From: Sandarakinorhabdus limnophila DSM 17366 | Lineage (GTDB): Bacteria > Pseudomonadota > Alphaproteobacteria > Sphingomonadales > Sphingomonadaceae | Assembly: GCF_000420765.1 (NCBI RefSeq) | Contig: NZ_ATVO01000005.1 | Span: 62,001 to 126,000, forward strand | DNA length: 64,000 bases | Direction: 5' to 3' | Shown: in pieces, positions 16,977-29,783 of the stretch | Position numbering within the stretch: the stretch's first letter is position 1 | Layout: each line of letters starts with the position of its first letter | Notes under the pieces: model-generated | What the model saw: only the letters and a program-made list of their open reading frames with translations | Database searches by the model: none | What the model was told of the DNA's origin: nothing | Program-made: the position numbers and the translations under genes

Positions 16977-18539
16977 TCATGCCGCTTCGCTGTCCTTGAA
17001 CGCCAGCACCGGCTTGCGGGCCGCCAGCGTTTCATCAAGCCGGCGGCGCGGCGCGAAATGCGGCCCGGTGCGCCAGGCATCTGGATCGGCCAGCATCTGC
17101 GTCGCGACGTGGCGCATCGCCCCGATCAGCTGATCGAGATTGGCCTTGCTCTCCGTCTCGGTCGGTTCAACCAGCATGGCGCCGTGCACCACCAGCGGGA
17201 AATAGACCGTCATCGGGTGGAAGCCTTCGTCGATCAGCGCCTTGGCCAGATCGAGCGTGGAAAGCCCGGTGCCATCGAGGAAATCATCCGAGAACAGCGC
17301 TTCGTGCATGCACGGGCCGCTGGCGGCGAACGGCGCGGTGTAGAGATCCTTCAGGCTGGCAAGGATGTAATTGGCGTTGAGCACCGCATCCTCGGCGACC
17401 TGGCGCAGGCCATCGGCGCCGTGGCTCATCATGTAGCTGAGCGCGCGGACGAACATGCCCATCTGGCCGTGGAAGGCGACCATGCGGCCGAAGCTCTGGT
17501 TCGCATGGGTGCCGGCGGTGTCTTCTTCGACAAGTTCCAGGCCGGTCGCGGTCTTGCGCACGAATGGGATCGGCGCGAACGGGGCCAGCGCGGCCGACAG
17601 CACAACTGGGCCTGAACCCGGCCCGCCACCACCGTGCGGGGTGGAGAAGGTCTTGTGGAGGTTGATGTGCATGGCATCAACGCCCAGATCGCCGGGGCGC
17701 ACGCGGCCAACGATGGCGTTGAAATTGGCACCGTCGCAATAGACATAGCCTCCCACCGCATGCACCGCATCGGAAATGCGCTTCAGGTCAGGCTCGAACA
17801 GGCCGCAGGTGTTGGGGTTGGTGATCATCACCGCCGCCACATCCGGGCCAAGCCGGGCCAGCATGGCATCCAGATCGACCCGGCCGCGATCGTTGGCCGG
17901 GATGTTTTCCACGGTGAATCCGCAGAAGGCCGCGGTCGCCGGGTTGGTGCCATGCGCTGACTCCGGCACCAGCACGACGCGGCGCGGATCGTTCTTCGCA
18001 TCGAGCGCGGCGCGGATCGCCACCATGCCGCACAGCTCGCCATGGGCGCCGGCCTTGGGGCTCATGGCCACCGCCGGCATGCCGGTCAGCTTCATCAGCC
18101 AATCGGCGAGCACGTCGATCAGTTCCAGCGCGCCTTGCACGGTGGATTGCGGCTGCAGCGGGTGAATGTCGGCAAAGCCGGGCAGCCGCGCCATCTTCTC
18201 GTTCAGGCGCGGGTTGTGCTTCATCGTGCACGAACCCAGCGGGAAGATGCCGAGATCGATGGCATAATTCTGCCGCGACAGGCGGGTGTAATGGCGCACG
18301 GCTTCGGGCTCGGAAAAGCCCGGGAGACCGATGACGGCATCACGGCCAAGGCCGCCGAGGCGATCCGGAACCGGCGGCACCGGCGGCAGATCAACGCCCG
18401 ACGTGTCGAGCGAGCCGCGCTCGAACAGCAACGGCTCTTCCAGCATCAGCGCCTTGTTGCCGGTGAAGGTTTCGGCGACGGCACCGGTGCCGGCGACGAG
18501 GCGGGTGGGGCGGCCCACATTGTTCATTGCAGTCGTCAT
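16977..18539 (-). CDS. gcvPB: Glycine dehydrogenase (decarboxylating) subunit 2
   Basis: This is the PLP-bearing half of the split P protein, which decarboxylates glycine and passes the aminomethyl group to lipoyl-GcvH. At 520 residues it has the expected size. The PLP-lysine motif is HINLHKTFSTPHGGGGPG; the LGSCTMKHNPR block is also typical. Its ATG shares one base with the gcvPA stop (TAATG), ensuring equal production of the two subunits. It is the last gene of the riboswitch-led gcv operon. Confidence 0.96.
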   Translation of the reverse strand: MTTAMNNVGRPTRLVAGTGAVAETFTGNKALMLEEPLLFERGSLDTSGVDLPPVPPVPDRLGGLGRDAVIGLPGFSEPEAVRHYTRLSRQNYAIDLGIFPLGSCTMKHNPRLNEKMARLPGFADIHPLQPQSTVQGALELIDVLADWLMKLTGMPAVAMSPKAGAHGELCGMVAIRAALDAKNDPRRVVLVPESAHGTNPATAAFCGFTVENIPANDRGRVDLDAMLARLGPDVAAVMITNPNTCGLFEPDLKRISDAVHAVGGYVYCDGANFNAIVGRVRPGDLGVDAMHINLHKTFSTPHGGGGPGSGPVVLSAALAPFAPIPFVRKTATGLELVEEDTAGTHANQSFGRMVAFHGQMGMFVRALSYMMSHGADGLRQVAEDAVLNANYILASLKDLYTAPFAASGPCMHEALFSDDFLDGTGLSTLDLAKALIDEGFHPMTVYFPLVVHGAMLVEPTETESKANLDQLIGAMRHVATQMLADPDAWRTGPHFAPRRRLDETLAARKPVLAFKDSEAA

Positions 18540-19906
18540 TACGCCATCACCTCGTCCAGCGCGTCTTCATACGCGTCAAAATCCTCGTCGGTCGCGGTTT
18601 CCGTCACCGCCACGATCATGCCGTTGGCCAGCGCCTTTTCGCCCGGCCACAACCGGCCCAGCGACACACCGCCGAGCACGCCCTTTTCGGCCAGTTTGCG
18701 CACGACGGGGCGGGCTTCGCGGCCAAGGTCCAGCGTGAACTCGTTGAAAAACGGCCCGTTCAGCAGCGTCACGCCGGGCATGCGGCTCAGCCGATCAGCC
18801 AGTTGCACGGCACGGGCGTGATTAAGGGCCGCGAGGTGGCGGAGGCCCTTTTCGCCCAGCAGCGATAGATGCGCCGAAAAGGCCAGCGCGATCAGGCCGG
18901 AATTTGTGCAGATGTTGCTGGTCGCCTTCTCGCGGCGGATATGCTGTTCGCGGGTGGACAGCGTCAGCACGAAGCCGCGCTTGCCGCTGGCGTCCACGGT
19001 TTCGCCGCACAGCCGGCCCGGAGCCTGGCGTACATGCTTTTCGCGGCAAGCAAACAAGCCCAGGTACGGCCCGCCAAACAGCAGCCCGGCGCCGAGCGAC
19101 TGGCCTTCGCCCACCACAATATCGGCGCCCATTTCCCCCGGCGACTTGATGGCACCCAGCGAAACGATTTCGGTGACCACGACGATGAGCAGCGCGCCGG
19201 CCTTGTGGCAGGCATCGGCCAGCGGGGTGAGATCGGCGACATGGCCGAACAGATTGGGGTTCTGCACGACGACGCAGCTGGTTTCGGCGTCAATGCTGGC
19301 AATCAGGCTGGACAGGTCATCGCCCGGCGCGCCCGGCGTGAACACGGGCGTGCCGGCCTCCACAACGTCGCCGGTGAAGCGGGTCAGCGTCTTCAGCACC
19401 GAGGTATAGTGCGGGTGGACACCGGCGGACACGATGCACTTGGATTTGCGGGTGATGCGGCGCGCCATGAACACCGCTTCTGTCATGGCGGTGGAGCCGT
19501 CGTACATCGAGGCGTTGGCCACTTCCATGCCGGTGAGCCGCGCCACCTGGGTCTGGAATTCGAACAGGACCTGCAGGGTGCCTTGCGCGATTTCCGGTTG
19601 ATAGGGTGTGTAGGCGGTGAGGAATTCGCCGCGCTGGATCACCATGTCCACCGTGGCCGGCACATGATGCTTGTAGGCGCCGCAGCCGACAAAGAAGGGC
19701 GTGGTGCTGGCGGTCAAATTCTTGCCGGCCATCTTTACCAGCGCGCGCTCCACCGCCATTTCGCTGGCGTGGTTCGGGAGGCCGGCGATGGGGCCATCCA
19801 GCACAGCTTCGGCAGGCACGTCCCGAAACAGATCGTCGACGCTGGCGGCACCGATGGTGGCCAGCATGGCTGAGCGGTCAGCCGTGGAAAGGGGCAGATA
19901 ACGCAA
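18539..19906 (-). CDS. gcvPA: Glycine dehydrogenase (decarboxylating) subunit 1
   Basis: The N-terminal half of the P protein of the glycine cleavage system, forming the heterotetramer with GcvPB. The 455-residue length agrees with the family. Typical blocks are [26 protein letters not shown] and [10 protein letters not shown] place the start at a TTG (giving [11 protein letters not shown]), with a GGAG ribosome site 8 bases upstream and 5 bases after the methyltransferase stop. A longer in-frame start at 19963 lies within the upstream gene. Confidence 0.94.
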
Positions 19907-19911
19907 GGGCC

Positions 19912-20682
19912 TTACTCCGGGAGATGAGCGGAAAAACGGATGCGGACATAATCGGCGACCCACTGGCCATCGGCGGCTTGCAGCGCCGGGGCGAGGAGAG
20001 CGACGGTTTCGGCGATGATCTGGTCTTTTTGGTCGTCGGGCACGCCGGCGGCGTCGATGAAGCCGCCACGGAAGGTTTCCAGCCAGCCGGCCATTCCGCT
20101 TTCTGGCAGCGGCGTCGGGCGCGGGATGATGGCGCAGCTGTCCACCACGAAACCGCCCGCTTCCAGAACGGCGCGGAAGGCCTCGGCGGTGGGATAGTAG
20201 CTGGTTTCGGCTCCAGCGGCCGGGAAGCCGTGGCGGGCGAGCACAGCGATCAGCGCGGTGCGGATGGCCGCGATATTGGCGTGGCCGCCGAATTCGCCGA
20301 CATAACGCCCACCGGGCTTCAGTGCACGCTTCACGCCCGCCGTCACCACGTCGGGCTGGCCGACCCAGTGCAGGGCGGCATTGGTGAAGACGGCATCGAA
20401 TTCGGCTTCGAAATCGAGCGCGCGCGCGTCGCCGAGCCGGGCATCAATGCCCTTGGCCTGCGCCGCCGCCACCATCGCCGGATCAGCATCAATACCAACC
20501 ACGCTGCAGCCGGCAGCGATCAGCTTCTGTGTCAGCACGCCATCGCCGCAGCCCAGATCGAGCACTTGGCTGCCCGACTGCGGCGCCAGCAGGTCAAGCA
20601 CCGCCGCTCCCAGCGCCGGCACGAAGCTGGCGTGGGTTGCATAGAGGGACGGATCCCAGCGCGTGGCGGTGCCTGTGGTCAC
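19912..20682 (-). CDS. SAM-dependent methyltransferase (trans-aconitate methyltransferase-like)
   Basis: A 256-residue class I methyltransferase. Motif I is [15 protein letters not shown], motif [10 protein letters not shown], the acidic loop GDARALDF and a post-motif TNAALHWV, as in trans-aconitate 2-methyltransferases. The start is a GTG immediately after the gcvH stop, and gcvPA follows within 5 bases. It is therefore embedded in the glycine cleavage operon and co-regulated by glycine. The substrate is unproven. A link with glycine or one-carbon balance is an inference from position only. Confidence 0.85.
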
Positions 20683-21054
20683 TTAAAGGCTGGCGACAAA
20701 CGCGTCGTAAGCGGCCTTGTCCATCAAGCCATCCAGCTCCGACGCGTCGGACAGGGTGAGCTTGAAGAACCAACCGTCGGCTTCCGGCGCACTGTTGACC
20801 AGGCTCGGATCGTCGGCCAGCGCTGGATTGGACTCGGTCACGGTGCCCGACACCGGGGCATAGACATCAGACGCGGCCTTCACCGATTCGACCACGGCAG
20901 CTTCCCCGCCCTTGGTCACGGCGCGACCGGCGTCGGGCAGATCGACGAACACGACGTCGCCCAGCTGGCCCTGCGCATAATCGGTGATGCCAACGGTGGC
21001 TTCACCGCCGGCAACGTCGATCCATTCATGATCCTGCGTGTATAGACGGCTCAT
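20683..21054 (-). CDS. gcvH: Glycine cleavage system H protein
   Basis: The 123-residue lipoyl carrier that shuttles the aminomethyl and hydride groups between P, T and L proteins. It starts [14 protein letters not shown]. The lipoylation lysine lies in [19 protein letters not shown], and the ending [13 protein letters not shown] is typical. Its ATG overlaps the gcvT stop by four bases (ATGA). The next gene, a methyltransferase, starts at the following base. Confidence 0.97.
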
Positions 21055-22190
21055 TTCTTGTCCCCTTCCCGAACATAATTCTTCTGTTTGAACGGCATCG
21101 GTACTACTGTGGCCGCGATCCGCTTGCCCCGCACTTCGATTTCCAACGCCGCGCCATCGGCGGCACAGCCAGTGGCAACATAGGCCATGGCAATCGGCAC
21201 GTTGAGGCTGGGCGCGAAACCGCCGGAGGTGAGCACGCCCACCTGTTCGGCGCCCACCCACACGGTCGCGCCTTCACGAGCCGGCATGCGGCCTTCAACG
21301 GCTAGGCCCACGCGCTTGCGGGCGGCGCCATTGAACAATTGATCGAGCACCCGCTCCGCACCGGGGAAACCGCCTTCGGTCTTGCGGCGCTTGGAAATGG
21401 CGAAGCTCAGATCGGCTTCGACCGGCGTGGTTTCCGGATCGAGATCATGGCCATAGAGCGGCAGGCCAGCTTCAAGCCGCAGCGAATCGCGGGCGCCAAG
21501 ACCAATCGGTTTCACTTCAGTGTGCGCCAGCAGCGCCTCGGCCAGCGCTTCGGCATGTTCGGCCGGCACCGAAATCTCGTAACCATCCTCGCCGGTGTAA
21601 CCGGAACGGGTGATGCCCAGCTTGATCCCGTTCCACAGCCAGCGTGCACCGGCCATGAACTTGAGATCGGCAAAGGCGGGCTGATCGGCAGACTCGGGGG
21701 TGAGGTCGAACCGGCTCATCACCGTCACTGCCTGCGGGCCTTGCAGCGCCAGCAGGGCGTCATCTTCCATGTGGTGCAATGTGATGCCAGCCGGCAGCCG
21801 CGCAGCCATGTGGGCGATGTCGCCATGCTTGGTCGCGCCGTTGACGACGAGATAGAAATTGCGGCCAGTATTGGTGACCATCAGGTCATCCAGGATACCG
21901 CCATTGTCGGCCAGCAGGAGTGAATAGCGCACGCGGTGCGGCTGCAACGCCTTGAAGTCACCGGGCGCCAGGCTTTCCAGCCATTCGGCGGCGCCTTCCC
22001 CTTCCACCAGCAGTTGGCCCATGTGCGACACGTCGAACAGCCCAGCATGTTCACGCGTCCACAAATGTTCGGCGATGATGCCGTCAAACTGGATCGGCAT
22101 GGCATAGCCAGCAAAAGACACCATGCGCGCGCCCAGGCGGCGGTGCAGCGCATCCAAAGGCAGTGTTTTCAGATCGGCATCATCAGCCAT
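21051..22190 (-). CDS. gcvT: Glycine cleavage system T protein (aminomethyltransferase)
   Basis: This enzyme transfers the methylene group from aminomethyl-lipoyl-GcvH to tetrahydrofolate, releasing ammonia. The 379-residue protein has [24 protein letters not shown] and [19 protein letters not shown], all hallmark blocks. I chose the ATG giving [11 protein letters not shown]; a codon seven residues earlier (22211) is an alternative. It is the first gene of the operon and lies about 47 bases downstream of the tandem glycine riboswitch. Confidence 0.96.
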
Positions 22191-22236
22191 ACGGCCCCCG
22201 GCAACAGTCACGGTTCAGCCTTGTGCCAAACCTGGT

Positions 22237-25871: not shown

Positions 25872-27281
25872 ATGTCAGCCGAACAGCCAGCCAAGGGCCT
25901 GAACGCCCAACTCATTAAGGTGTGGACGACATGGGGCACGCGCTTCCTGCCGTTTGCCGATGTTGCCACCCCGGAATTGCCGCTGTCGCGCCTGCTGCGT
26001 CTGTCGCTGATCCAGGTCAGCGTCGGGATCAGCCTGGTGCTGCTGGTTGGCACACTCAACCGGGTGATGATCGTGGAACTGGGTGTGCCGGCATCGGTGG
26101 TTGGCGTGATGCTGGCGCTGCCGCTGCTCGCCGCGCCCTTCCGCGCGCTGGTGGGCCACAAATCCGATACCCACAAATCCGCCATGGGCTGGCGGCGGGT
26201 GCCCTATATCTACATGGGCACCATGGTGCAGTTTGGCGGCCTGGCGTTCATGCCTTTTGCTATCCTGGTGTTGTCGGGGGCGCAGGAAGCTTTTGATGAG
26301 CGGGTGTGGCTGGGCACGCCGGCCGCGGCCATTGCCTTTCTGATGGTGGGTGCCGGCATCCACATCACCCAAACCGTTGGCCTGGCGCTAGCCACCGATC
26401 TCACCAAGACCGAACAACAACCCAATGTGGTTGGCCTGATGTATGTCATGCTGCTGCTGGGCTCGATCGGTGCGGCCCTGTTTTTCGGCTGGGTGCTGGC
26501 GGATTTCTCGCAAGGGCGGCTTATCCAGGTGATCCAGGGCTGCGCAGTGGTGACGGTCAGCCTGAATTTCTTGGCGCTGTGGAAACAGGAAACCCGGATT
26601 CCCAGCCGGCTGCGGCCTCAGCCAGTCGCGCCTGATCCCAGCTTCCGCGAAAGCTGGGACCTGTTTGTGGCCAAGGAAAAGACGCTTCTGCGTCTGCTCG
26701 CGGTGGGACTGGGCACATTAGCCTTTTCGATGTCGGATATCGTGCTGGAACCTTATGGCGGCGAAGTGCTCAATCTGGGCGTTGGCACCACCACCCTGCT
26801 TTCGGCGCTGACGGCGGGCGGCAGCCTGATCGGTTTTGCCTATGCCTCTTATATTCTGAGCCTGGGTGCCGATCCGTTCCGCATGGCCAGCCTGGGCGCG
26901 CTGATCGGCGTTCCGGCCTATGGCCTGGTGATCTTCGCCGCCACATCCGACGCGCCGTCGATTTTCACCCTGGGCGTGCTGCTGGCCGGGCTTGGCACTG
27001 GCCTGTTCGGCCACGGCACGTTGACAGCCACCATGCAGTTGGCGCCGAAACACCAGGTTGGCATTGCCATGGGGGCGTGGGGCGCGGTGCAGGCCACTTC
27101 CCAGGGGATTGGCGCAACCATCGGCGGCGTAGTTCGCGATCTCACCCGCGGCGTCGATCTGGGGTTCAACCTGGCCGCCAAGGCGGATGGTTATGTGCTG
27201 ATCTTTGGCCTGGAACTGCTGCTGATGCTGGCCACGCTGATCGCCATGCGCCCACTGTTGCACCGCGAAAACGAAAATTAA
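25872..27281 (+). CDS. pucC: PucC/LhaA family (BCD) antenna assembly transporter
   Basis: A 469-residue MFS-like membrane protein with about 12 helices of the bacteriochlorophyll delivery (BCD) family, needed for assembly of LH complexes. Landmarks are LSRLLRLSLIQVSVGI, FRALVGHKSDTHKSAMGWRR, the GLALATDLTKTE loop, MSDIVLEPYGGEVLNL and the late GTLTATMQLAPKHQVGIAMG. Because the adjacent convergent operon encodes LH2-type subunits I label it pucC, but sequence alone does not separate it from LhaA. A GAGG ribosome site precedes the ATG. Confidence 0.85.
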   Translation: MSAEQPAKGLNAQLIKVWTTWGTRFLPFADVATPELPLSRLLRLSLIQVSVGISLVLLVGTLNRVMIVELGVPASVVGVMLALPLLAAPFRALVGHKSDTHKSAMGWRRVPYIYMGTMVQFGGLAFMPFAILVLSGAQEAFDERVWLGTPAAAIAFLMVGAGIHITQTVGLALATDLTKTEQQPNVVGLMYVMLLLGSIGAALFFGWVLADFSQGRLIQVIQGCAVVTVSLNFLALWKQETRIPSRLRPQPVAPDPSFRESWDLFVAKEKTLLRLLAVGLGTLAFSMSDIVLEPYGGEVLNLGVGTTTLLSALTAGGSLIGFAYASYILSLGADPFRMASLGALIGVPAYGLVIFAATSDAPSIFTLGVLLAGLGTGLFGHGTLTATMQLAPKHQVGIAMGAWGAVQATSQGIGATIGGVVRDLTRGVDLGFNLAAKADGYVLIFGLELLLMLATLIAMRPLLHRENEN

Positions 27282-27396
27282 TGCGCTGCAGAAGGCATTT
27301 TGCGGCCGGTTTTCCGCTGCACTCCGCCGCCATTGCCCCACATCGCCGGGCCTGATTCGCCCACGGGGGCTGCGCACCCCGGAAAATGATACACAA

Positions 27397-27439
27397 GAAA
27401 AAAGGCCGGTGCCCCACCGTCAAGCGGGTGGCACCGGCC
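27397..27439 (-). terminator. Intrinsic terminator of the pucBA operon
   Basis: On the minus strand a GC stem (10 paired bases outermost, arms 27430-27439 and 27404-27413, with inner pairs and a small bulge) is followed directly by six T residues (27403-27398). This is the classical form of a rho-independent terminator. It sits 36 bases after the antenna alpha gene stop and between that operon and the convergent pucC gene. Confidence 0.9.
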
Positions 27440-27474
27440 CATTCCAGCCTGCCCGGCGATGCCGAGCGAAAGAC

Positions 27475-27744
27475 TTACTTGGCAGCTTCAGCCGGAGCAG
27501 CTTCGGCAGCCGGAGCGGCTTCCACCGGAGCAGCTTCAGCAGCCGGAGCGGCTTCAGCCGGGGCAGCTTCCATTACCGGAGCGGCGGCGACAGCAGCGCC
27601 ACCCTGCCAGAAGGCAGCAAACCAAGTTGTGTTGGTCAGGATCGCCAGATGGATCGAGAAAGCGACCCCTGCGACCCAAACGAGGAAGAACAGCGGCAGA
27701 CCGACGCTGGGGTTGACGTAAAGCCAAATGCGACCTTCGTTCAT
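27475..27744 (-). CDS. pucA: Light-harvesting LH2-type antenna alpha polypeptide with extended C-terminal tail
   Basis: A one-helix bacteriochlorophyll a-binding polypeptide. The opening MNEGRIWLYVNPSVGLP and the block HLAILTNTTWFAAFWQGG match LH2 alpha chains (for example those beginning MNQGKIW...) far better than LH1. His32 is the expected B850 ligand. At the C-terminal pigment-contact pair the residues are Phe45-Trp46. After about residue 49 the protein continues for some 40 residues with an Ala/Glu/Pro-rich tail made of 11-residue repeats. It is 89 residues long instead of the usual 50-55. AGGGAG precedes the ATG, 18 bases after the beta gene. Confidence 0.9.
   Translation of the reverse strand: MNEGRIWLYVNPSVGLPLFFLVWVAGVAFSIHLAILTNTTWFAAFWQGGAAVAAAPVMEAAPAEAAPAAEAAPVEAAPAAEAAPAEAAK
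27481..27570 (-). repeat. Tandem 33-base repeat coding the PucA tail
   Basis: Nearly three copies of a 33-base unit encode EAAPAEAAPAA, EAAPVEAAPAA and the partial EAAPAEAAK. The units differ by only a few bases, which points to recent slippage or amplification. The repeat keeps the frame and stays within the coding sequence, so copy number could vary without breaking the gene. Confidence 0.85.
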
Positions 27745-27762
27745 GTGCCAGACTCCCTTAAA

Positions 27763-27915
27763 TTACTTCATCCAAGGCGTAAGTGCATACGCCAGGATAT
27801 GGGCTAGGACTGCGCATGCACCGTAAATACGGGTGCCCCACTTCAGACCTTCATTGATTTCCATTGCTTCCTTCTCGGTCAGTCCGGTCGGATAGACCTT
27901 AGTATCATCTGCCAT
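27763..27915 (-). CDS. pucB: Light-harvesting LH2-type antenna beta polypeptide
   Basis: A 50-residue antenna beta chain. ADDTKVYPTGLTEKEA and GTRIYG with AHILAYALTPWMK match LH2 beta chains (DDLNKVWPSGLT... and AHFLA...ATPWL in Rhodobacter). LH1 beta usually ends with WRPW. His39 is the predicted B850 ligand and Arg29 the predicted B800-site Arg. The conserved N-terminal His of LH2 beta (His12 in Rhodoblastus numbering) is Asn21 here. A strong GGAAGGGG ribosome site lies upstream. It is the first gene of the pucBA operon. Confidence 0.9.
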   Translation of the reverse strand: MADDTKVYPTGLTEKEAMEINEGLKWGTRIYGACAVLAHILAYALTPWMK

Positions 27916-28078
27916 GATATTCCCCTTCCCATTTGGTGAAGTCACCGTGCCAACCGGCCAATGCCTTCCCGCCTGATTACCAGGCCAAACAGCATCACGC
28001 GCTGGCCAGCCCCTCCCCAACCTTCCACCAACGGCCGACCCGTTGGCAGGATCGCGGCAGGAGATCGCAGGTGATTCC

Positions 28079-28106
28079 CTGATATCCAATCTGTCGCATG
28101 TGTCAA
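28079..28106 (-). promoter_or_regulatory. Candidate promoter of pucBA
   Basis: On the minus strand TTGACA (28106-28101) and TATCAG (28084-28079) are separated by 16 bases, giving a predicted start near 28072 and a leader of about 157 bases before pucB. The leader contains a 7-base-pair hairpin (28028-28034 with 28040-28046). The -35 box is perfect, the -10 is weak. No TGT-N12-ACA (PpsR/CrtJ) site was found between 27916 and 28265. Confidence 0.45.
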
Positions 28107-28179
28107 TCTGTCACTGCGGCATTGCATTTGGCTGGCTTGACAATTTTGCAGTGCAACATTGGCCTTCGCTGCATTGCAG
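28092..28179. promoter_or_regulatory. Repeated TGTC and two TGCA palindromes between pucB and the M20 gene
   Basis: Three TGTC tetramers occur at 28092, 28101 and 28109. The middle one overlaps the candidate pucBA -35 box. Two 11-base palindromes follow, TTGCAGTGCAA (28146-28156) and CTGCATTGCAG (28169-28179), with centres 23 bases apart. A TTGACA at 28137-28142 faces the M20 gene. The arrangement looks like operator sites in a shared control region of divergent genes, but no regulator is identified. Confidence 0.35.
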
Positions 28180-28265
28180 CACTGGGCAAGCCAGCTCAGA
28201 GCGGGCTTTACCCTTCGTCCATGTCCGATATGATCTGCTTTGCTTCACAGTTTTGGGGATACCGC

Positions 28266-29783
28266 ATGACCGATTTCAACCGCCGCAGCCTGATTGCCGG
28301 CGCCGCCGTCATCGCCGCCGCCCCTGCATTGGCCGCCACCCCGAAAGGCCCGGCCGCCGATGCGCAGAAGAAGATCCGCGCCAGCATCGACCGGCAGCTG
28401 CCCGAGAACATCGCCCGCATCCAGGACTGGATCCGCCACCCCGGCATCGCCGCCGGAAACTGGCAGATGGAAGAGGCCTGCACCTACACCATGGGCCTGA
28501 TCAGGGATGCCGGCTTCCAGATGGTCAAGCGCATGCCCACCAAGGGCCAGCCCGGCATTTTCGCCACGCTCGATGCCGGTGCCAAGCGCACGGTGGGCAT
28601 CTATTTCATGTATGACGTGAAGCAGGTGAATCCAGCCGAATGGTCCAGCCCGCCGTTCGAGGCGCGCATCACCAACAAGCCGGGCTGGGGCCAGGTGATC
28701 GTCGGCCGCGGCGCCATCAATCAGAAGGGGCCGGAAGCCGCCTTTCTGGCCGCGCTCCACGCCTTCCGCGAAGCCGGACAGAAACTGCCAGTCAATCTTG
28801 TGCTGGTCGCCGAGGGCGAGGAAGAAATCGCCTCCCCCAATTTCCACCAGATCGTGCAGGCCCCCGAAGTGCTCGCCGCGCTCAAGAAATGCGACGGCAT
28901 CGTCATTCCTACCGCCTGGCAGACGGCCAATGGCAGCACGATGATCAATCTGGGCGCCAAGGGCCCGATCGAGTTCCAGCTGATCGCCAGTGGCGAACGC
29001 TGGGGCAAGGGCCCGAAGATCGACATTCACAGCAGCCAGCACGCCCATGTGGATTCGCCCGTGTGGCACCTCGTGCAGGCACTGAACACGCTGGTGAAGG
29101 AAGACGGCTTCACCCCCGCTATCGACGGCTGGTTCGACAATGTGCGCGGGCTGACAGCGCGGGAAAAGGAACTGATCGCGATGACGGCCGCCAGCCAGAG
29201 CGAGGCCGAGGCCAAGCGCGCCATGGGCGTGAAGATGTGGATCAACAACGAACCGTGGCAGCAAAGCCTTGAACGCCTCGCCAGCCAGCCGACCGTCAAC
29301 ATCCAGGGCCTGGTCGCCGGCTACACCGGCCAAGGCGGCAAGACCGTGCTGCCCGGCCGTGCCGAAGCCAAGCTGGAATGCCGTCTGGTGCCCAATCAGA
29401 CCTTCCGTGAAGCCGAAGCCAAGCTGGAGGCCCATCTAGCCAAAAGGGGCTTTGGCGATATCGAAGTGGTGGTGAGCGGCGGCTACGACCCCACCGAAAC
29501 CGCCGAGGATGCCCGCGTGGTGCGCGCTCAACAGGCCGTGTATGCCCGCTTCAACGCGCCCGCCACGCTCTACCCGCGCAGCGCCGGCAGTTGGCCCGGC
29601 AGTGTCTTCACCCAGCCGCCGGTCTCACTGCCTGCCGGCCAGTTTGGCCTCGGCCACGGCAGCGGCGCGCATGCGCCGGACGAATATTTCGTGGTAGAAA
29701 GCAGCAACCCGGCCGTACAGGGCCTGGCTGGCTGCACGGCAGGGTTCGTTGACTTTCTCTATGAAATGGCAGTGGTTCAATAG
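28266..29783 (+). CDS. M20 family peptidase-like protein with altered metal ligands, Tat-exported
   Basis: A 505-residue M20 (carnosinase/ArgE/DapE) fold protein. The N-terminus NRRSLIAGAAVIAAAPALA is a twin-arginine signal. The usual first metal motif H-x-D-V reads FMYDVKQ, with Met115 where His is expected. The bridging Asp in GRGxxDxKG is Asn152 (GRGAINQKG). The EGEEEIAS catalytic/metal Glu pair (186-187) and the late GAHAPDEYF His remain. It may bind metal differently, or be non-hydrolytic. GGGGA lies 6 bases before the ATG. It is monocistronic, divergent from pucBA. Confidence 0.82.
   Translation: MTDFNRRSLIAGAAVIAAAPALAATPKGPAADAQKKIRASIDRQLPENIARIQDWIRHPGIAAGNWQMEEACTYTMGLIRDAGFQMVKRMPTKGQPGIFATLDAGAKRTVGIYFMYDVKQVNPAEWSSPPFEARITNKPGWGQVIVGRGAINQKGPEAAFLAALHAFREAGQKLPVNLVLVAEGEEEIASPNFHQIVQAPEVLAALKKCDGIVIPTAWQTANGSTMINLGAKGPIEFQLIASGERWGKGPKIDIHSSQHAHVDSPVWHLVQALNTLVKEDGFTPAIDGWFDNVRGLTAREKELIAMTAASQSEAEAKRAMGVKMWINNEPWQQSLERLASQPTVNIQGLVAGYTGQGGKTVLPGRAEAKLECRLVPNQTFREAEAKLEAHLAKRGFGDIEVVVSGGYDPTETAEDARVVRAQQAVYARFNAPATLYPRSAGSWPGSVFTQPPVSLPAGQFGLGHGSGAHAPDEYFVVESSNPAVQGLAGCTAGFVDFLYEMAVVQ

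Follow-up and report, generated by a model that had tools for sequence, protein, structure and literature searches.

The window, by which the whole 64,000-nucleotide stretch analysed here is meant, carries a light-harvesting locus made up of three protein-coding genes and two non-coding elements (Table 1). All three genes were found where the original prediction had placed them, and their Pfam families agree with it, the scores lying above the Pfam cut-offs of 21 for PF03209 (PUCC) and 23 for PF00556.

Table 1. Genes and non-coding elements of the puc locus, in window coordinates.
Feature	Coordinates	Strand	Description and evidence
pucC	25872..27281	+	LH2-type PucC, 469 aa, major-facilitator assembly factor; PF03209 474.5 bits and tree placement
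Hairpin	27403..27440	-	Probable pucBA terminator between the convergent genes; T-run 27398-27403, 3' of pucA
pucA	27475..27744	-	LH2 alpha chain, 89 aa; PF00556 34.1 bits, PDB neighbours, tree
pucB	27763..27915	-	LH2 beta chain, 50 aa, C-terminus TPWMK; PF00556 31.2 bits, PDB 9lt4, tree
Conserved block upstream of pucB	28095..28112	-	Probable promoter core; GACAGATTGACACATGCG on the - strand

The gap between pucB and pucA is 18 bp, and the reading frames are intact. The pair and pucC run towards each other with 193 bp between them; therefore, the operon that had been predicted does not exist in the sense of a jointly transcribed pucBAC unit. The prediction that no pufLM follows is borne out, since pufL and pufM lie on a different contig of this genome. 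The neighbouring genes are ispH, thrB, and rnhA at one end of the locus and an M20 peptidase gene at the other. Further upstream in the window (16977-22211), glycine cleavage genes stand in a row (two P-protein halves, H, and T).

According to a direct reading of the ligand and B800-site residues, the chains have alpha His32, beta His39, beta Arg29, and beta Asn21. Counted from the beta ligand His, Asn is thus at -18 and Arg at -10, with Trp at -13. The alpha chain ends in an Ala/Pro/Glu-rich tail of ~43 residues.

As for the non-coding elements, the hairpin belongs to a 93-nt fold of -47.5 kcal/mol (z -4.56), with 1 of 200 shuffles as good, and a terminator scan of positions 27250-28300 reported 2 overlapping sites at it, compared with a mean of 1.2 in shuffles. 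Upstream of pucB, TTGACACATGCG (- strand) is invariant in the window and the 9 aligned relatives (L092, L094, and L099 are outside this alignment) and has a single copy within the window. The block is probably a promoter core; a consensus promoter scan of positions 27250-28300 did not pick it out. PpsR/CrtJ sites have the motif TGT-N12-ACA. Such a site was rejected for pucB, near which there is no match, and the 6 exact matches in the window compare with 6.23 by chance.

LH2 affiliation and the reaction-centre genes

The genome comprises 2,613,739 bases and is 99.99% complete. It has 4 antenna-chain matches, 2 at the puc locus (contig C5) and 2 on contig C8, as well as 2 PucC-family matches, one at the window locus and one on C8. 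The antenna pair on C8 is LH1-like, keeps beta His-18, and sits with pufL, pufM, pufC, bchZ, bchY, bchX, and bchC, with bchH further along the contig. The search for pufBALM in the remaining genome, proposed along with the original prediction, thus yielded pufBALMC on C8, and the case named against that prediction, a genome without reaction-centre genes, did not occur. In other words, the puc genes lie outside the puf operon, and the reaction-centre genes are encoded elsewhere.

The joined alpha-beta core tree (98 rows) separates 61 LH2 from 37 LH1 rows at 100/100 and places the window with LH2; the alignment behind it is short, and many of its inner forks are left unresolved. The best PDB match of the window beta chain is the LH2 beta chain of 9lt4 (1.6e-22), and the PDB chains closest to the window alpha chain are LH2 alpha chains. 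In the PucC tree, a 45-row LH2-linked clade, to which the window PucC belongs, is split at 100/99 from 19 rows, among them those of G091, G041, and G103, family members that have just two LH chains. This tree covers 64 of 67 loci (the second PucC of the window genome, L083, is missing, as are L105 and L122) and is drawn without 8 of the 39 loci from the beta-chain search of named genomes described below. The window PucC thus groups with the PucCs of puc loci and not with those of LH1-only genomes. An LH1 core would cluster with LH1 and adjoin pufLM, neither of which is seen here, and the claim that the polypeptides are LH2 rather than LH1 stands.

LH2 of Rhodoblastus acidophilus, Rhodobacter sphaeroides, and Rhodopseudomonas palustris shares with the window the ligand His in both chains, beta Arg-10, and a PucC-family protein. 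Unlike the window, these canonical systems keep beta His-18, a residue that is not strictly defining for LH2, and have alpha Gln3 or Asn3. In addition, of three Rbl. acidophilus loci one yielded a pucC, which is co-directional with pucBA, whereas pucC is convergent in the window.

Altogether, the locus very probably encodes the apoproteins of a peripheral LH2 ring (PucB and PucA) and a dedicated PucC. PucC would assist assembly of the ring, the alpha-beta pairs would bind bacteriochlorophyll a with alpha His32 and beta His39 as ligands, and energy would be passed on to the RC-LH1 core, whose genes lie in another part of the genome; we hold this reading with the same high confidence when the long-wave band of ~832-839 nm discussed below is included.

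Distribution, kinship, and alternative readings

In a survey of 397 Sphingomonadaceae genomes, 76 have an antenna-chain match, and at least 15 of these 76 have three or more LH chains, a lower bound because chains just under the limit were missed (e.g., in G169, counted with 3). Among the genomes listed there are 11 from the window's genus, of which 10 have four chains, whereas the remaining one, G214, lacks antenna chains and, at E 1e-30, also PucC. A recent review describes most Sphingomonadales as being without LH2 genes (PMC12654162), and the photosynthesis clusters presented for two Sphingomonadales strains contain none (PMC3176799). Blastomonas fulva T2 is reported to have pucBA (PMC9505733), LH2 and LH1 types not being distinguished here. 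A plasmid origin of the locus was rejected: no plasmid record has a beta-chain relative at E 0.01, and the 11 PucC-bearing records are all <60% identical.

The beta-chain alignment search of named genomes returned 39 loci, with Sandarakinorhabdus sp. AAP62, S. rubra, S. oryzae, and S. cyanobacteriorum among the closest. These nearest named relatives place the window in the genus Sandarakinorhabdus. The genes rnhA and thrB beside pucC are common to 11 close relatives. Within the 45-row LH2-linked clade, the window PucC is nested in a 30-row clade (99/95), the other 29 rows of which are either sphingomonads, recognised by name or by kinship, or alphaproteobacterial records without a closer label. 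The alpha-beta tree shows a comparable, mainly sphingomonad grouping. Regarding arrangement, pucC is convergent with pucBA in 31 of the 32 loci with Asn or Gln at beta -18 (Asn/Gln type), the remaining one (L114) being without a pucC match on its 5.4-kb contig, and co-directional in five other loci (L122-L126).

The original prediction had called the antenna rare or transferred. The first half of this holds, given the at least 15 genomes among the 76 LH-bearing ones; as for the second, recent horizontal transfer of the puc cassette into the genus from outside the sphingomonads is unlikely. In its favour are the patchy occurrence of LH2 in the family and a different location of the cassette in 3 (Polymorphobacter multimanifer, G286, and G317) of the 10 genomes of the wider genus that carry puc genes. 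In P. multimanifer (G252), the puc cassette and an rnhA-M20 neighbourhood are on different contigs, and in G317, the cassette and the M20 gene are likewise on separate contigs. The family member G038 also has a separate, co-directional puc set of the His type, and L099 and L114, both in the Asn/Gln clade, belong to metagenome bins with the labels Hyphomicrobiales and Acetobacteraceae, respectively, and may be either sphingomonad contigs that were binned wrongly or cases of transfer from the group to others. Against these points stand the flanks common to the 11 relatives and the mainly sphingomonad PucC and alpha-beta clades, which together argue that the cassette is not a recent import, so that the transfer half of the prediction is not supported for this genus.

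Two further observations concern arrangement in related genomes. In G286 (L077), there is no pucC match in the 12 kb around pucBA, and an LH2-type PucC is encoded ~0.29 Mb off on the same contig. The puc loci L046 and L047, from the family members G250 and G038, are both His-type LH2; G250 shares the convergent pucC of the Asn/Gln clade.

The absence of LH chains and PucC from G214 indicates that loss or lack of phototrophy occurs in the genus, and it might be supposed that the puc genes of the window are likewise silent or relict, decaying while only RC-LH1 is made. However, the frames are intact, the pucB-pucA spacing is short, the upstream block and hairpin are present, and all 10 genus genomes with a match show four LH chains, which makes such decay very unlikely. 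It is hardly credible that the locus encodes an LH1-like or concentric outer-ring antenna (such as LHh of Gemmatimonas) instead of free LH2 rings. In favour of such an antenna is the lone NCBIfam hit of the beta chain, an LH1 beta model; it stays below its cut-off (53 vs 61 bits), and an LH1 reading of that chain was rejected. Against it, the alpha-beta tree and the nearest PDB sequences point to LH2, and 9lt4, the nearest solved relative, lists nine of each chain.

B850 residues and the expected spectrum

In Rbl. acidophilus, alpha Tyr44 and Trp45 hydrogen-bond the B850 pigments. At these positions the window alpha chain has Phe and Trp, respectively, and with Phe in place of Tyr44 one B850 hydrogen bond is expected to be missing, so that the long-wave band of the LH2 ring is expected near 832-839 nm and not at 850 nm. 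The same Phe-Trp pair is found in Erythrobacter ramosus, which we take to be the present name of Erythromicrobium ramosum, and in E. dokdonensis. The bands given for these species in the review are 832/798 nm (Erythromicrobium ramosum) and 835/800 nm (E. dokdonensis), and those for S. limnophila are 837/800 nm (PMC12654162). LH2 of this B800-830 type thus combines an 800-nm band with one at 832-837 nm; its two Erythrobacter representatives have the pair seen in the window. For Rba. sphaeroides, LH2 that has lost the hydrogen bond of alpha Tyr44 is described as a B800-839 complex (PMC9618040).

The alpha chain of Polymorphobacter multimanifer has Tyr-Trp, and an 855-nm shoulder is mentioned for Polymorphobacter strain FW250 (PMC12654162). 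Tyr-Trp is also present in Sandarakinorhabdus AAP62, S. rubra, S. oryzae, and S. cyanobacteriorum, which are predicted on this basis to absorb nearer 850 nm. The locus points to a simple rule linking these alpha residues to the B850 band. For a river strain grouped with S. limnophila, LH2 has been considered possible, judging by the spectrum (PMC5017807). The antenna type is already known in the genus from the 800/837-nm spectrum of S. limnophila, and the presence of an LH2 locus is thus mostly expected; what the locus adds is the genes behind an antenna that had been recognised in the genus by its spectrum.

The B800 pocket

The unexpected part, compared with the mostly expected LH2 locus, is a coupled change in the B800 pocket. 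In Rba. sphaeroides, the network around the B800 Mg is described as beta His22 (-18), alpha Asn3, and a carboxylated alpha Met1, and exchange of beta His22 for Ser removes almost all B800 absorption (PMC8775250). The same paper recounts a mass-spectrometry study in which carboxylation of alpha Met1 was not found. In another report, replacement of beta His21 by Ser abolished B800 binding (PMC6358721). The window beta chain retains Arg-10 and has Asn21 in place of His-18.

Among 61 distinct alpha-beta pairs, 36 have Asn or Gln at beta -18, and these are accompanied by Trp-13 in 36/36 and by alpha Glu3 in 35/35 readable cases. The 25 pairs with His-18 have a residue other than Trp at -13 in all cases and other than Glu at alpha 3 in 24/24 readable ones. 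The proportion 36/61 is not a frequency because the locus search was seeded with Asn/Gln-type chains, and since these 36 pairs form one clade (96/94) in the alpha-beta tree, the three coupled changes may count as one event. The beta-chain patterns used for pair collection and for the tree demand Arg at -10, so that its conservation in the collected pairs is by construction; the LH1 pattern demands His-18, and accordingly no claim is made on LH1 at large.

The class (385 genomes) and phylum (398 genomes) samples are less biased than the seeded set but overlap with each other, with at most 30 loci read per sample query. Of 53 loci, some of them near-duplicates (e.g., L233 and L234) and one without a reading (L219), 52 gave readable LH1 or LH2 beta chains, 50 of which have His-18; Asn is present in the window and in one LH1-type chain (L216). 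The other 23 LH2-type loci of these samples have His-18 in 23/23 cases and never Trp-13 or alpha Glu3.

These coupled residues lead us to a tentative proposal, which we regard as possible and somewhat doubtful, that the 800-nm pigment is held by a second solution. The alpha Glu3 carboxylate would ligate or anchor the Mg, and beta Asn/Gln-18 and Trp-13 would complete the pocket, replacing the set of carboxylated Met1, His-18, and Asn/Gln3; the change would have originated in one lineage and been kept in Sandarakinorhabdus, Polymorphobacter, and Erythrobacter. Alternatively, with beta His-18 replaced, B800 could be weakly bound or absent. The 800-nm band of whole cells does not prove bound B800, as RC-LH1 alone also absorbs near 800 nm (PMC5017807). 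If the pocket has been rebuilt in the proposed way, it would be a natural case of B800 binding without the residue needed in Rba. sphaeroides, which would bear on antenna engineering and on LH2 diversification.

In addition, the alpha chains of the window, L090, and L072 are longer by one residue ahead of the ligand His than the other LH2 alpha chains, which might disturb the fold; this concerns 3 of 60 distinct pairs, setting aside one Rbl. acidophilus chain with an extended N-terminus. For five of the 60 pairs in this comparison, the start used lies too far into the chain, and L113 and L156 could not be read.

The closest known counterpart is LH2 of Erythrobacter sanguineus, which has two puc loci (L105 and L113). 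Similarly to the window, it combines beta Asn-18, Trp-13, and alpha Glu3 with pucBA convergent to a pucC match, and the L105 beta chain is 76% identical to that of the window. Its alpha chain, however, has Phe-Phe at the B850 hydrogen-bond positions, compared with Phe-Trp in the window. The beta chain of 9lt4, an entry named B-800/814 by its PDB depositors, is identical to that of E. sanguineus DSM 11032 and of the Asn type, and the listed 9 alpha and 9 beta chains suggest a nonamer. A structure search with the modelled beta chain of E. sanguineus returned 6 matches (best E 2.3e-3), with 9lt4 not among them. Among the openly licensed PMC papers listed for these topics, there was none on 9lt4 or on a sphingomonad B800 site, and the coupled change in the B800 pocket did not appear there either. 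As for the genes of E. sanguineus, the pucC match at L105 has no open frame of 330 aa, and the second pucA of DSM 11032 (L113, 5189-5416) is not one frame from the usual start. By contrast, 9lt4 contains a chain that is near-identical to the product of this L113 pucA and has the usual start.
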